From assembly GCA_013141115.1 (NCBI GenBank), contig JABFRP010000002.1, positions 124,001 to 188,000 on the forward strand: a stretch of 64,000 bases of DNA, read 5' to 3'. The notes below the pieces were generated by a model that saw only the letters and a program-made list of their open reading frames with translations, was not told where the DNA came from and did not search any database. The translations under genes were made by a program, and so were the position numbers. How positions within the stretch are numbered: position 1 is the stretch's first letter; each line of letters starts with the position of its first letter. Below are positions 13,432 to 42,901 of the stretch, one piece after another. Source of the DNA: Ferruginibacter sp. Its GTDB lineage: Bacteria; Bacteroidota; Bacteroidia; Chitinophagales; Chitinophagaceae.

Positions 13432-13491
13432 CTTAACTTTTTTGTAACCATCATTAGTGCATTGTTGAGCGGCAATTGCGTCGCACTCTTG

Positions 13492-13499
13492 TACATTTG
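13492..13499 (+). promoter_or_regulatory. -7 element for the GDPD lipoprotein gene
   Basis: TACATTTG matches TAnnTTTG, 30 bases before the ATG. A dispersed word containing GCGTCGCACTCTT lies directly upstream (13476-13490), where spacer and -33 would be. Confidence 0.45.
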
Positions 13500-38236: not shown

Positions 38237-38257
38237 AGGGTTGTCAACCTTTGGAAG
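38237..38257. repeat. Left half of the 33-bp palindrome split by the IS element
   Basis: AGGGTTGTCAACCTTTGGAAG is the left part of the same palindrome found whole at 42104-42136 and 42869-42901. It ends in the 8-bp TTTGGAAG (38250-38257) that is repeated after the element at 41746-41753. Here the arm has GTCAACC rather than GCCAACC. Confidence 0.85.
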
Positions 38258-38282
38258 GGCATTAACAACTAAAGAGGTACAG
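38258..38282. repeat. Left terminal inverted repeat of the IS element
   Basis: The sequence starts GGCATTAAC and ends AGGTACAG. It aligns with the reverse complement of 41721-41745 at 18 of 25 positions. Confidence 0.8.
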
Positions 38283-38317
38283 CCATAAACTACTTAAAAA
38301 GTGTTTATGGCTTTTTT
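38281..38317 (+). terminator. Inward-reading terminator at the left end of the IS element
   Basis: AGCCATAAAC pairs perfectly with GTTTATGGCT (38302-38311) across an 11-base loop and is followed by six or more T. It would stop transcription entering from the left flank, a usual insulation of IS ends. Confidence 0.7.
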
Positions 38318-38318
38318 T

Positions 38319-38504
38319 ATGGGTTCAAATAAAATAACTATCGAAGAAATTAAATTTGATGCCGAAGTAATTAGATTAAAAGATTTAATGCGAACTACAG
38401 CAATTGCCCTCAATGATAGGATTAAATTACTTATGAAAGAGAACAATATTACTGCTGATTGGTCTCCGCTGTCCGAGGTTTTTCCCTTACATAGTACATC
38501 TTAA
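38319..38504 (+). CDS. Small ORF at the left end of the IS element
   Basis: A 61-codon frame starting ATG at 38319 encodes MGSNKITIEEIKFDAEVIRL and then KDLMRTTAIALNDRIKLLMK, a charged helical segment. Its last 56 bases run over the end of the convergent gene. I do not recognise it. It may be a real small protein or the truncated start of a longer gene. Confidence 0.3.
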   Translation: MGSNKITIEEIKFDAEVIRLKDLMRTTAIALNDRIKLLMKENNITADWSPLSEVFPLHSTS

Positions 38505-38841
38505 TGTCACCTTCTATTAAATAAAGGTCTCCAATATAAGAGTTTAAAAAATCTATTTGCAATCTGTATTGTCTCTTTTCACCAGACGTTTTAACAAACA
38601 TATCCATGTATACATTTCCTACATCATCCATTAATATTTCATATTGCACTATTCGGTCTGCTTCTTTAACTGGTAGTTGCCAAATAGTTAAGCTGCCTTT
38701 TTCATCTATACTTGCAGGCTTATCAAATCTTATTTTCTGGGTATTATCCGATACTCCATTTAAATACCAATTACCTTCTAAGCCATCTATTACTAATTGA
38801 ATTTGTTTTCTCTTTTGTTCATCCGTCCATTTATTTTCCAT
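38449..38841 (-). CDS. IS passenger protein of unknown function
   Basis: This 130-residue protein is read away from the transposase, 35 bases from its start. It is hydrophilic with alternating short strands (GLEGNWYLNGVSDNTQKIRF, GSLTIWQLPVKEADRIVQYE, LQIDFLNSYIGDLYLIEGDI), suggesting a small beta barrel. No signal peptide, membrane helix or known motif is seen. Being inside the element it is cargo, and its function is unknown. Confidence 0.55.
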   Translation of the reverse strand: MENKWTDEQKRKQIQLVIDGLEGNWYLNGVSDNTQKIRFDKPASIDEKGSLTIWQLPVKEADRIVQYEILMDDVGNVYMDMFVKTSGEKRQYRLQIDFLNSYIGDLYLIEGDIKMYYVREKPRTAETNQQ

Positions 38842-38876
38842 ATCAGTTGTTTTGAATATACTAAAATACTAATTAT

Positions 38877-40001
38877 ATGTTTAAAAATTTAAGAGAGTTT
38901 ATAACCAGTTTACCGGATGAAGAAAGCTGTAGAAAGTATTTGATGAAAGAAAGATGGAACGGGGTTGTTACATGCCCTTATTGCTCTTGTGAAAGGGTTA
39001 CTGTTATAGAAGGTGGTAAACGTTTTAAATGTAACCATAAGGATTGTAGAAAGAACTTTAGCGTAACTGTTGGTACAATAATGGAAGCCTCTAAAATACC
39101 TTTATGCAAATGGCTTACTGCTATCTATTTGATTACTGCACATAAACGTGGGATTAGTTCTTATCAATTAGGACGGGATTTAGGTATTAGTCAAAAGTCA
39201 AGTTGGTTTATGCTGCACCGTATCAGGGAAATGCTAAGAATGAAAGAAGATATTGTATTAGGGGAGCATAGCCCAGTAGAAGCCGATGAAACATATATTG
39301 GAGGAAAGTTTGCCAATATGCACAACAGTAAAAGAAAAAAGTATAGCGAAGCAGGTAACCCATTTGGTAATAAGACAGCCGTATTAGGAATGATTGAAAG
39401 GACAGGTAATTTAGTTGCTAAAGTGATGCCCTCAAATAACAACACAGCTATACCCAAAACAATAGCAGAAACCGTAAAACTAAAAGCTACTTTGATAACT
39501 GATAGTTCAAACCTTTACAATCGTATCGCACATAGTTACAATTACCATGCAGTTAATCACTCCATGCAGGAATATGTAAGAGACAATGTGCATACAAACA
39601 CAATAGAAGGAGCATTTAGCCATTTAAAAAGGATGGTGATAGGAACGTACTACCAAATAAGCAGCAAGCATACACAACGTTACTGCGATGAATTTGCATA
39701 TCGCTTTAATAGCCGTAAAATAAAAGACGCTGACAGGTTTACTTTAACAATGGGAAGGTTAGAAGGCAGGCTTACTTATAAGAATTTAATACAGGCTGAA
39801 ATACCCACACAAATAGAACTTACTGAAAGACCTAAAAACAGGTATTGCGGTGTTATCCAATTAAAGGACGGTGAAATAATAGCCCACTATAAAAGCATAA
39901 AAGAAGCTGCTAAAATGACTAACATAAACAGGGGCGGTATATCAAGAGCCTGTAGCGGACAAAGACCAAGTGCAGGTGGATTTGACTGGATATTTGCGTA
40001 A
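38877..40001 (+). CDS. IS1595-family transposase with extra NUMOD1-like C-terminal domain
   Basis: This 374-residue DDE-type transposase starts with a zinc ribbon (C33-x2-C36 in CPYC and C52-x4-C57), typical of IS1595, followed by a helix-turn-helix (YQLGRDLGISQKSSWFMLHR). The catalytic residues are D137 (EADETYIGG), D209 (LITDSSNLY) and E244 (HTNTIEGAFSHLKR). After the usual end near residue 315 there is an added module (about 322-374) reading GVIQLKDGEIIAHYKSIKEA, then NINRGGISRACSGQRPSAGG and FDWIF. It matches the NUMOD1/IENR1-type DNA-binding repeat of homing endonucleases. The added domain may help bind the ends or select the palindromic target. Confidence 0.88.
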   Translation: MFKNLREFITSLPDEESCRKYLMKERWNGVVTCPYCSCERVTVIEGGKRFKCNHKDCRKNFSVTVGTIMEASKIPLCKWLTAIYLITAHKRGISSYQLGRDLGISQKSSWFMLHRIREMLRMKEDIVLGEHSPVEADETYIGGKFANMHNSKRKKYSEAGNPFGNKTAVLGMIERTGNLVAKVMPSNNNTAIPKTIAETVKLKATLITDSSNLYNRIAHSYNYHAVNHSMQEYVRDNVHTNTIEGAFSHLKRMVIGTYYQISSKHTQRYCDEFAYRFNSRKIKDADRFTLTMGRLEGRLTYKNLIQAEIPTQIELTERPKNRYCGVIQLKDGEIIAHYKSIKEAAKMTNINRGGISRACSGQRPSAGGFDWIFA

Positions 40002-40011
40002 CTTAGCTATC

Positions 40012-40116
40012 ATGGCTAAAGCTACAAAACCAAAAAAGAAAGCAGTTCCTAACATAACAGTTAAAACCTCATTAACTGCTGACCAGTTATTAAAACTGGC
40101 TTTAAATACCCCATAA
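40012..40116 (+). CDS. 34-codon ORF after the transposase
   Basis: An ATG 10 bases after the transposase stop opens a frame encoding MAKATKPKKKAVPNITVKTS and then LTADQLLKLALNTP. It has a basic, disordered start and a short amphipathic helix. The codon pattern looks coding and the frame lies between the transposase and a strong terminator, in one transcript. I recall similar short basic ORFs in Bacteroidota but cannot name a family. It could be an accessory DNA-binding peptide. Confidence 0.45.
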   Translation: MAKATKPKKKAVPNITVKTSLTADQLLKLALNTP

Positions 40117-40181
40117 AAAAAAAGTGAAAAAAAGTAAAGAGTTGTTTATTTATTATTATAATAGCATTTAAATGCTGCAAT

Positions 40182-40209
40182 AATAAAGCCCCAATATTGG
40201 GGCTTTATT
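40182..40209 (+). terminator. Terminator after the transposase unit
   Basis: AATAAAGCCCCAAT and ATTGGGGCTTTATT form a perfect 28-base palindrome followed by TATTTTT. Because it is symmetric it can also stop the minus-strand gene at 40348. Confidence 0.75.
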
Positions 40210-40347
40210 ATTTTTAAGATTTTATACCTAATCCATCGTAGTCATTAAGGATGTTCTTTTCCATAATTTTTTAAGTTTTGTTTATTGGTTAGTTAGACGG
40301 GGTAAAACACAGTTTTGGTTCAAAATTTATGTTAAAATACAACAAAT

Positions 40348-41025
40348 TTATATAACACCCCATTTTGTAGCAACTTCTTCGTAGTTCATAAGAAACCTTT
40401 TACTTTCCTTCTGTATTTCATCTATGTACTTTCTAAGGATATTTAAATAGTCAACAAAGAGGGTTTTGAAGCACAATTTTATTGATTCCTCATCTACATG
40501 CCCTTTCTTTATTAATAACGACAAATTCTCAAAATAGTTTAAAATACAAATAACGGCCTTTCGTGCATCAATATTGTTCTCCAATTCAGTAATAAATTCA
40601 CTTATTGGCTTATGGTCTTGTAGTTTATCCTTATGCTCCCGTAAAAACTTGCGAGATAATTCTACATGGTTAGCCATATCGGGCTTAAACCATAGTGATG
40701 CAACTTGAAAGGAATAAAACTCTTTGTTTTTGTCTGATTCTTTTTGTTTACTTAATTTTTCCTCCTCATACTTTTGCTTGTCAAAATCAATCTTTGCTTT
40801 ATTAACCTCATAGTTCAAGCGCAAATTTTTGGCATGATAAACTAGGGTTGTTGAAACCAGTCCGCATGTAACAATAGCTACTATATCCCTTATTTCAAAA
40901 GTTATGCCACAGTAATTTGCTATAATAATAAATGCTATAGCAATTATTACTGTAATGCCCGCTCCCCAATATAACGTTGCATATTTAAATTCAACAGAAG
41001 TTGTGTCAGGATGCCTATCTACCAT
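40348..41025 (-). CDS. IS passenger: DUF4760-like membrane protein
   Basis: This 225-residue protein has two membrane helices near the N-terminus (LYWGAGITVIIAIAFIIIAN and IVAIVTCGLVSTTLVYHA). A charged coiled coil follows (YEEEKLSKQKESDKNKEF), then a cytoplasmic helical domain containing ICILNYFENLSLLIKKGHVD and KTLFVDYLNILRKYIDEI. That domain resembles DUF4760, whose function is unknown. Membrane-plus-helical proteins of this style occur in mobile and defence loci, but I have no evidence of a defence role here. It lies inside the IS element and its DNA is AT-rich. Confidence 0.6.
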   Translation of the reverse strand: MVDRHPDTTSVEFKYATLYWGAGITVIIAIAFIIIANYCGITFEIRDIVAIVTCGLVSTTLVYHAKNLRLNYEVNKAKIDFDKQKYEEEKLSKQKESDKNKEFYSFQVASLWFKPDMANHVELSRKFLREHKDKLQDHKPISEFITELENNIDARKAVICILNYFENLSLLIKKGHVDEESIKLCFKTLFVDYLNILRKYIDEIQKESKRFLMNYEEVATKWGVI

Positions 41026-41158
41026 TTAGTTATTTTCGCCAAATATATATAATGTTTATTAAATACAAAATATAATTTTAACTTAACTGCATATAAAAAA
41101 ATAAACTTCTTTGGTGTTACTAAATAAGCTAAAAAATACTAATATAATTAGTTTTAGC

Positions 41159-41166
41159 TACCTTTG
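41159..41166 (+). promoter_or_regulatory. -7 element for the YegP-like gene
   Basis: TACCTTTG matches TAnnTTTG, 59 bases before the ATG. This leaves a leader of about 50 bases. No clear -33 element is seen. Confidence 0.35.
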
Positions 41167-41225
41167 GGAAGCTGCACCTGTAGTAAGCAAGTGTAGCATA
41201 TTTTGTAACAAGTAAAAAAAGTAAA

Positions 41226-41474
41226 ATGAACAGTTTATTTGGCAACAGCGGTGGCTTTAATTCTATTATAGCCGAACATCTTAAAAAACAACCAAGACTT
41301 GAAATTTACGAAGACAGCAAAGACCCAAAAGCAAAAATCCGTTGGCGTATTTGGATGTCTTCAGATATTGTTGCCGCATCTTCGCAAGGTTATGCTACTG
41401 AAGCCGCTGCCAAGGAAAATATCAAGAAAATAAGAGACCATATCAATGAACTAGAAAAGCTAGGTAAACTCTAG
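41226..41474 (+). CDS. IS passenger: YegP/DUF1508-like small protein
   Basis: This 82-residue protein contains one YegP (DUF1508) unit: PRLEIYEDSKDPKAKIRWRI, then VAASSQGYATEAAAKENIKK. Single or double YegP units are common in bacteria and their function is unknown. The N-terminal 25 residues (NSLFGNSGGFNSIIAEHLKK) are specific to this protein. It is carried inside the IS element and converges with the small ORF at 41476. Confidence 0.72.
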   Translation: MNSLFGNSGGFNSIIAEHLKKQPRLEIYEDSKDPKAKIRWRIWMSSDIVAASSQGYATEAAAKENIKKIRDHINELEKLGKL

Positions 41475-41475
41475 T

Positions 41476-41673
41476 TTAACTAATAATCGCATTAGATACA
41501 AAATCCTCTATAACTATATCTAACACAAGTTTTGCTTGTGTTACTGTCAATCCTTTCAATATACCCAAAACTTTATAATGCTTGTCTTTTACAGTGGTTT
41601 CATCCCAAACTACGTTTACAGGGGAATTGCCTGCACTTTTACTTGCCTTTTTTTTGATTGAACTTTCTGCCAA
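41476..41673 (-). CDS. IS passenger: 65-residue protein of unknown function
   Basis: The protein has a basic start (MAESSIKKKASKSAGNSPVN) and a helical end (LKGLTVTQAKLVLDIVIEDF). It resembles no family I know. It converges with the YegP-like gene, with one base between the stops, and is the last gene before the right end of the element. Confidence 0.45.
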   Translation of the reverse strand: MAESSIKKKASKSAGNSPVNVVWDETTVKDKHYKVLGILKGLTVTQAKLVLDIVIEDFVSNAIIS

Positions 41674-41720
41674 TTGTCGCTAACTAAAAGTAACTAAGTT
41701 AAGTTTGTTTATCTCTTATC

Positions 41721-41745
41721 CTGTACCTGTAGGTTAGTTGATGCC
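41721..41745. repeat. Right terminal inverted repeat of the IS element
   Basis: On the minus strand it starts GGCATCAAC and ends AGGTACAG, mirroring 38258-38282 at 18 of 25 positions. Confidence 0.8.
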
Positions 41746-41765
41746 TTTGGAAGGTTGGCAACCCT
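41746..41765. repeat. Right half of the split 33-bp palindrome
   Basis: TTTGGAAGGTTGGCAACCCT completes the palindrome begun at 38237. Its first eight bases duplicate 38250-38257. Confidence 0.85.
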
Positions 41766-42103: not shown

Positions 42104-42136
42104 AGGGTTGCCAACCTTTTAAAGGTTGGCAACCCT
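42104..42136. repeat. 33-bp palindrome, intact copy A
   Basis: AGGGTTGCCAACCTTT and its exact complement AAAGGTTGGCAACCCT are joined by one T. It lies upstream of the DUF6498-like gene and would form a 16-bp hairpin in RNA. Confidence 0.9.
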
Positions 42137-42868: not shown

Positions 42869-42901
42869 AGGGTTGCCAACCTTTGGAAGGTTGGCAACCC
42901 T
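42869..42901. repeat. 33-bp palindrome, intact copy B
   Basis: AGGGTTGCCAACCTTTGGAA then GGTTGGCAACCCT is a near-perfect palindrome with the TTTGGAAG centre that the IS element used as target. It lies four bases past the pepT stop and may terminate both converging genes. Confidence 0.9.

Follow-up and report, generated by a model that had tools for sequence, protein, structure and literature searches.

The window analysed here, a stretch of 64,000 nucleotides from Ferruginibacter sp. (contig JABFRP010000002.1, positions 124,001 to 188,000), contains a cargo-bearing insertion sequence (IS) of the IS1595 family at the centre of an inverted repeat. Its transposase ends in a domain resembling part of the homing endonuclease I-HmuI, and most relatives with such a tail and with both ends identified likewise lie in the loops of predicted hairpins. 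The element measures 3,488 bp (38258-41745), as read directly from the sequence, and its principal parts are the following.

38258..38282, + strand: left terminal inverted repeat, 25 bp, GGCATTAACAACTAAAGAGGTACAG (sequence, 14-kb end scan)
41721..41745, - strand: right terminal inverted repeat, 25 bp, GGCATCAACTAACCTACAGGTACAG as the reverse complement (sequence, 14-kb end scan)
38250..38257, no strand: left copy of the target duplication, TTTGGAAG, at the repeat centre (sequence, end scan)
41746..41753, no strand: right copy of the target duplication, TTTGGAAG (sequence, end scan)
38877..40001, + strand: IS1595 transposase, 374 aa, with zinc ribbon (aa 13-59), DDE domain (aa 133-278) and NUMOD-like tail (aa 326-369) (profile searches, models)
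39852..39983, + strand: transposase segment encoding the I-HmuI/NUMOD-like domain (PF22083, E 3e-4; PDB 1u3e_M top by sequence and fold)

The inverted ends match at 18 of 25 positions, and the 8-bp duplication that flanks them is perfect. In a 14-kb scan for exact 8-bp duplications beside inverted ends this pair scored highest, with 17/24 against 15/24 for the runner-up. Members of the IS1595 family are characterized by an 8-bp target duplication and by inverted ends starting with GG, and both features are present in the window element. The transposase passed the curated cut-offs of all three relevant profiles, with scores of 131.1 for Pfam DDE_Tnp_IS1595 (PF12762; cut-off 27), 38.1 for the N-terminal Zn_ribbon_IS1595 (PF12760; cut-off 25.4) and 182.4 for NCBIfam transpos_IS1595 (NF033547; cut-off 75). 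An initial annotation, made from the DNA letters and a list of open reading frames, had proposed an IS1595 element with these ends, this duplication and a DDE transposase with a zinc ribbon, all of which was borne out. The C-terminal transposase domain, a conserved 34-aa frame directly behind the transposase gene and the position of the duplicated bases in the loop of one inverted repeat were absent from it.

The transposase carries an I-HmuI/NUMOD-like tail

Residues 326-369 of the transposase matched PF22083 (I-HmuI NUMOD-like) at E 3e-4. The same profile was found at E ≤ 0.01 in 31 of 37 aligned family members, with a best value of 1e-8, and a homing endonuclease profile of PADLOC matched aa 327-373 at E 3e-6. 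When a tail profile built from 7 elements was compared with solved chains, 1u3e_M (I-HmuI) ranked first at E 4e-4. The matched part comprises residues 109-170 of the 174 residues of I-HmuI, which we take to be its DNA-binding end. In the AlphaFold model the tail is folded as strand-strand-helix-helix-strand, like the C-terminal part of I-HmuI, with block values of the predicted local distance difference test (pLDDT) of 79-91 over residues 321-374; in a second model these were 84-87 from residue 41 on. Foldseek placed 1u3e_M first among PDB entries for the tail model (E 2e-3, probability 1.00, 1.4 Å over 53 columns). The sequence match to a NUMOD/I-HmuI-like domain thus holds at the level of the family, and the predicted fold agrees with it. 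A fold search with the model of the whole protein brought up DDE transposases and retroviral integrases as weak matches, and I-HmuI ranked eighth (E 0.14). No nuclease domain was found in the window transposase.

The nearest relative in 93 genomes of the genus stood at 81%. Among the plasmid and phage matches listed (12 of 390 records and 5 of 5, respectively) the maximum was 42%, and the alignments ended by residue 324.

The element lies at the centre of a repeated palindrome

The insertion site and two further copies of the same repeat are located as follows.

38237..38249, no strand: left arm of the target inverted repeat, AGGGTTGTCAACC (sequence, stem analysis, intact genome copies)
41754..41765, no strand: right arm of the target inverted repeat, GTTGGCAACCCT (sequence, stem analysis)
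42106..42134, no strand: intact copy of the target repeat, loop TTTTAAA (repeat search)
42871..42899, no strand: intact copy of the target repeat, loop TTTGGAA as at the occupied site, 1.1 kb away (repeat search)

Joined across the element, the flanks read AGGGTTGTCAACC-TTTGGAAG-GTTGGCAACCCT, and the duplicated bases form the loop of one inverted repeat, whose stem arms AGGGTTGTCAACCTT and AAGGTTGGCAACCCT contain one mismatch. Insertion into a palindrome had been supposed in the initial annotation, with the proviso that the two flanking halves might belong to two separate intact repeats. This is not so: the halves join into one repeat, of which nine intact copies are present in the 5.44-Mb genome, two of them in the window, and none of the nine is overlapped by a frame of at least 100 aa. 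Since the flanks join into one repeat with intact copies elsewhere, the element occupies the centre of one repeat of the repetitive extragenic palindromic (REP) type. As with REP-specific IS, the site is a repeated extragenic palindrome; several copies in the REP sequences of one genome were not found, the window element being present once in its genome. The site lies between two divergent genes and is therefore not a terminator.

Insertion sites of related elements with the tail

Related loci were gathered by protein similarity from whole genomes, genome contigs and viral contigs. The tailed set comprises 11 distinct loci (the window, L041, L042, L043, which is the same locus as L051, L044, L172, L173, L174, L175, L192 and L193), and a family search repeated from another centre gave no further tailed element. 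Both ends were found for 8 of these 11 by means of inverted ends and duplication, without scoring palindromes. They are missing for L043, L044 and L175, with the right end alone scoring well in L043 and L175. The end score of L042 (17) is below the threshold of the stem comparison described below, and its ends were set by hand from an earlier scan. Those of L174 were hand-picked for their 21/24 match; its end pair is one base off and a 9-bp duplication is possible, and the end profile contained L174's own ends and thus lends them no independent support.

In seven of the eight tailed elements with both ends, the window element and six of its seven relatives, the duplication falls within the loop of an inverted repeat whose arms measure 8-21 bp. 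The arms and the kind of site of the six relatives are:

L041: CACGGTACCGGTGAGTCACCG / CGGTGACTCACCGGTACCGTG, REP-like palindrome, as in the window
L042: TCAGACTTCCGAAGTTT / AAACTTCGGAAGTCTGA, other palindrome
L172: AAAAAGAGCTGT / ACAGCTCTTTTT, terminator-like AAAG..CTTT stem
L173: AAAGCCCTGCA / TGCAGGGCTTT, terminator-like AAAG..CTTT stem
L174: AAAGCAGC / GCTGCTTT, terminator-like AAAG..CTTT stem
L192: AAAGCCTGGTTA / TAACCGGGCTTT, terminator-like AAAG..CTTT stem; one DNA mismatch, corresponding to a G-U pair in RNA

The predicted folding energies of the seven hairpin sites range from −16.8 to −46.7 kcal/mol, against −4.2 at the site of L193. Arm sequences are mutually unrelated among the seven, and no common sequence was seen in the duplications of the tailed elements. 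The four terminator-like stems have a G+C core closed by an A-run and a T-run and lie 29-172 bp past the stop of the upstream frame. In L173 and L192 the T-run continues beyond the stem; in L174 it does so by a single T, and in L172 it is contained within the arm. None of the seven sites is overlapped by a frame of at least 80 aa; those of L042, L172, L174 and L192 are found between convergent 3′ ends, those of L041 and L173 with a 3′ end on one side. Insertion of the tailed elements into hairpin loops is well supported.

As inverted repeats around the element, the arms might be taken for the outer part of its own long ends. We exclude this with near certainty, given that the arms differ among elements, that intact repeats exist without an element and that the 8 bp separating each arm from the adjacent end are repeated in direct rather than inverted orientation.

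Each tailed element may instead recognize a palindromic sequence of its own, in the manner of REP-specific IS, the hairpin being incidental. The sites of the window element and of L041 are indeed repeated palindromes (nine intact copies in the former case, a second copy at a distance of 0.7 kb in the latter), and REP-specific IS are known in five families (PMC1525189). However, four sites resemble ordinary terminators with differing stems, and the palindrome of L042 occurs nowhere else in its 14 kb, and we regard this explanation as rather unlikely.

Two observations concern individual members of the tailed set. In L041 (2236-3010) the two CGGTGACTCACC palindrome copies, 0.7 kb apart, flank a 225-aa gene with an HuH-like motif; a Y1/RAYT assignment of this gene, based on the motif, obtained no support from Pfam. 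L192 and L193 sit in contigs filed as viral, and phage or prophage may for this reason carry the tailed group between hosts.

Comparison with tail-less IS1595 elements

Of 191 loci, 142 gave elements at an end-score cut of 17 or more; at a cut of 18 or more and with duplicate sites removed, 151 elements were obtained from 234 loci. The ends of the tail-less L054 and L057 may be wrong, as the flank resembles another IS end, and those of L109 and L240, which do not start with GG, are possibly false; the latter two are counted as tail-less if kept in the larger set. A site was called a hairpin under the strict cut with a stem of at least 8 and a shuffle P < 0.01, and under a laxer cut, used as the label on the tree, with a stem of 7.5 and P < 0.05.

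Under the strict cut, 6/7 tailed elements lie in hairpins versus 9/144 tail-less ones (Fisher P 2e-6), and L042 adds a seventh of eight. Folding gave a similar picture, with z < −2.5 for 7/8 tailed versus 15/143 tail-less sites. The nearest tail-less relatives, nine in a 20-row fork around the tailed clade (support 86), gave 0/9 by stem; one of them, L194, reached a folding z of −3.4, though no stem encloses its duplicated bases. The genome of the window also contains two tail-less IS1595 copies, L047 and L185, both at plain sites without a hairpin. A quick tree of 154 rows, built from residues 1-330 of each frame, which may include a few tail residues, grouped the tailed rows in one clade (SH-aLRT, an approximate likelihood ratio test of branch support, 98). 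The tail accounts for one change on this tree, the hairpin label for ten.

An absence of targeting, with random insertion and survival only in dispensable intergenic hairpins, would be in line with the location of all seven hairpin sites between frames. Yet the duplication sits at the exact centre of the repeat, though a few bases aside would be equally harmless. Compared with centres 12-200 bp away, moreover, 5/7 tailed sites gave P < 0.01 and 6/7 P < 0.05 (a set including L193 and without L042), and such centring is absent from most tail-less IS1595 elements, being seen in 9/144. We consider random insertion very improbable.

As an observation on tail-less elements, one site, AAGAGTGC[GACGCAA.], is occupied by L176, L178 and L179, each in a different genome. 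The motif GTACAAGAGTGCGACGCAA is also found at three positions in the 11 kb of L177, and the window has one exact occurrence (13476-13494, - strand), a repeated motif being used here as an IS target.

Cargo and other frames

Between the ends, the following further features are found.

38301..38504, + strand: 67-aa frame, doubtful gene (no family above cut-off)
38449..38841, - strand: cargo, 130-aa protein, no family above cut-off (open reading frame list, profile searches)
40012..40116, + strand: 34-aa micro-ORF (small open reading frame) MAKATKPKKKAVPNITVKTSLTADQLLKLALNTP (in other elements, relatives follow the transposase or precede cargo)
40179..40212, no strand: perfect inverted repeat of 34 bp, AATAATAAAGCCCCAATATTGGGGCTTTATTATT, where the transposase/micro-ORF and the DUF4760 gene converge
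40348..41025, - strand: cargo, DUF4760 membrane protein, 225 aa (60.2 bits, cut-off 25)
41226..41474, + strand: cargo, 82-aa DUF1508/YegP-like protein, weak match (both profiles below cut-off)
41476..41673, - strand: cargo, 65-aa frame (no family above cut-off)

The frames confirm the about 2 kb of additional genes on both strands, and the DUF4760 membrane protein, that had been annotated initially. The YegP-like assignment persists as a weak match, both profiles remaining under their cut-offs (DUF1508 19.3 versus 22, HVO_2922 32.4 versus 90). For the DUF4760 protein, 18 database matches were obtained at E ≤ 0.001, itself included. Distant relatives (30-40%) were present in 4/393 other genomes of the family, with no IS1595 transposase within the examined stretch.

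Passenger genes were reportedly described for the IS1595 family by Siguier in 2009 under the name transporter IS. The window element conforms to this type, with DUF4760 and other non-transposition frames between its ends. The initial annotation had treated the cargo as unusual, a view we abandoned: all 142 elements with called ends, the window element included, measure at least 1.46 kb, and PMC3129680 already describes passenger-gene IS with the IS1595 family. Cargo moreover varies between tailed elements, which have in common only a two-gene module (L042 and L051) and one frame (L173 and L192). The suggested search for copies with the same ends and cargo gave nothing beyond the one copy in the genome, and none of the window cargo recurred in the other examined elements except for a 29% DUF4760 match in the tail-less L205 and the micro-ORF. 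A defensive role, also proposed for the cargo, was rejected, PADLOC matching none of the six cargo frames to a known defence family.

The micro-ORF encodes a lysine-rich protein of 34 aa (ITVKTSLTADQLLKLALNTP). Related frames occur in L041, L042 and L051, and tblastn adds L192, L193 (weakly) and the tail-less L052 and L182; in L051 and L052 the relatives overlap or adjoin the next gene. The micro-protein might be an accessory of transposition. The inverted repeat at 40179-40212 is a possible two-way terminator; a terminator consensus scan did not list it. Outside the element, the right-hand neighbour gene is encoded in 1 of 92 other genomes of the genus at E ≤ 1e-5 (47%).

Proposed mode of target choice and relation to known systems

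The explanation we favour, with some confidence, is that of a cargo-bearing IS1595 transposon inserted at the centre of an inverted repeat, whose C-terminal I-HmuI/NUMOD-like domain likely directs it to predicted-hairpin sites. That the tail causes the hairpin-loop targeting we infer from its domain kinship and from the one branch shared by tail and preference. The DDE domain would attach the ends of the element to the two strands at positions 8 bp apart that span the loop. The tail, acting as a dimer or bound to an extruded hairpin, would respond not to a fixed sequence but to the shape of the site or its symmetry, as is suggested by the unrelated arms of the seven sites. Such a target choice would allow an element with varying cargo to spread at little cost to the host, because the seven sites lie between frames.

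Several observations weigh against this explanation. Taken alone, the window protein stays under the Pfam cut-off for PF22083 (20.7 versus 27), and the Foldseek search of PDB with the tail model returned no match under E 0.001. Eight elements are a small sample; one of them, L193, has ends matching at 24/24 and no hairpin at its site by stem or folding, and L172 reached only P 0.016 in the local control because equally good stems occur within 200 bp. As each element is known from one insertion, recognition of an element-specific sequence is also conceivable. Hairpins are used by tail-less elements as well: L182, next outside the nearest nine, lies in one (stem 8.5, P 0.003), and in the tail-less clade of L062, L186, L046, L049, L065 and L196, 5/6 are at inverted repeats by the laxer and 4/6 by the strict cut. 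Five of these sites share the pattern G[T......A]C, L049 meeting the laxer cut only, and L196 is not at an inverted repeat. The tail is therefore not required for hairpin targeting within the IS1595 family, and as it was gained once, tail and preference coincide on one branch only.

Accordingly, the IS1595 core transposase of certain lineages may itself confer hairpin targeting, the tail serving another step such as end binding or regulation. Besides the tail-less clade, the shuffle test alone points in this direction, with P < 0.01 for 11/144 tail-less elements, L182 among them, against about 1.4 expected. The lack of stems in the nearest nine tail-less relatives and the rise of tail and preference on the same branch speak against it, and we assign this alternative a minor share of the probability.

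The favoured explanation, targeting through the tail, has partial parallels in known systems. With the IS1595 family the window element shares the DDE and zinc-ribbon families, GG..CC ends, the 8-bp duplication and passenger genes; it differs in the C-terminal domain of its transposase and in the hairpin-loop position of the duplication in 7/8 tailed elements. According to PMC1525189, IS found in REP palindromes (IS1397, ISKpn1, ISPsy8, IS621, ISPa11, ISPpu9, ISPpu10, ISRm22 and ISRm19) belong to IS3, IS110, IS4, IS256 and IS5, without IS1595 among them. They likewise insert into intergenic palindromes, with the choice ascribed to the transposase, whereas here the family is IS1595 and the sites include terminator-like stems of unrelated sequence. 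I-HmuI, an HNH homing endonuclease (PDB 1U3E), provides the best solved match to the tail, but in the window protein the tail is joined to a DDE transposase and no nuclease domain was found. KolobokP is also a DDE transposon that took in a homing-endonuclease protein; it is eukaryotic and its nuclease is proposed to cut DNA, unlike a fused DNA-binding domain (PMC9587614). A literature search, covering mostly titles and abstract openings with most subscription papers outside its reach, brought up no paper describing a transposase with a NUMOD domain or linking IS1595 to hairpins. What is new is the tailed transposase and its target, the carriage of cargo being already known.

In a bolder form, which we put forward tentatively and think less likely to be right than wrong, a DDE transposase would have acquired its DNA-binding module from a homing endonuclease and thus become a structure-guided integrase that reads the shape of an extruded hairpin. 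It would deliver cargo into terminator and REP loops as safe harbours, with one protein and no guide RNA.

In our judgement, target choice by the DDE transposases of the IS1595 family is mostly unexplained. The tailed clade has an extra domain that is recognizable by itself, and its choice of targets contrasts sharply with that of its nearest relatives; removal or swapping of the domain would therefore test the modularity of target choice directly. If recognition is by shape, the tailed transposases would offer a means of inserting DNA at terminators with one protein, in places where harm to the host should be rare.

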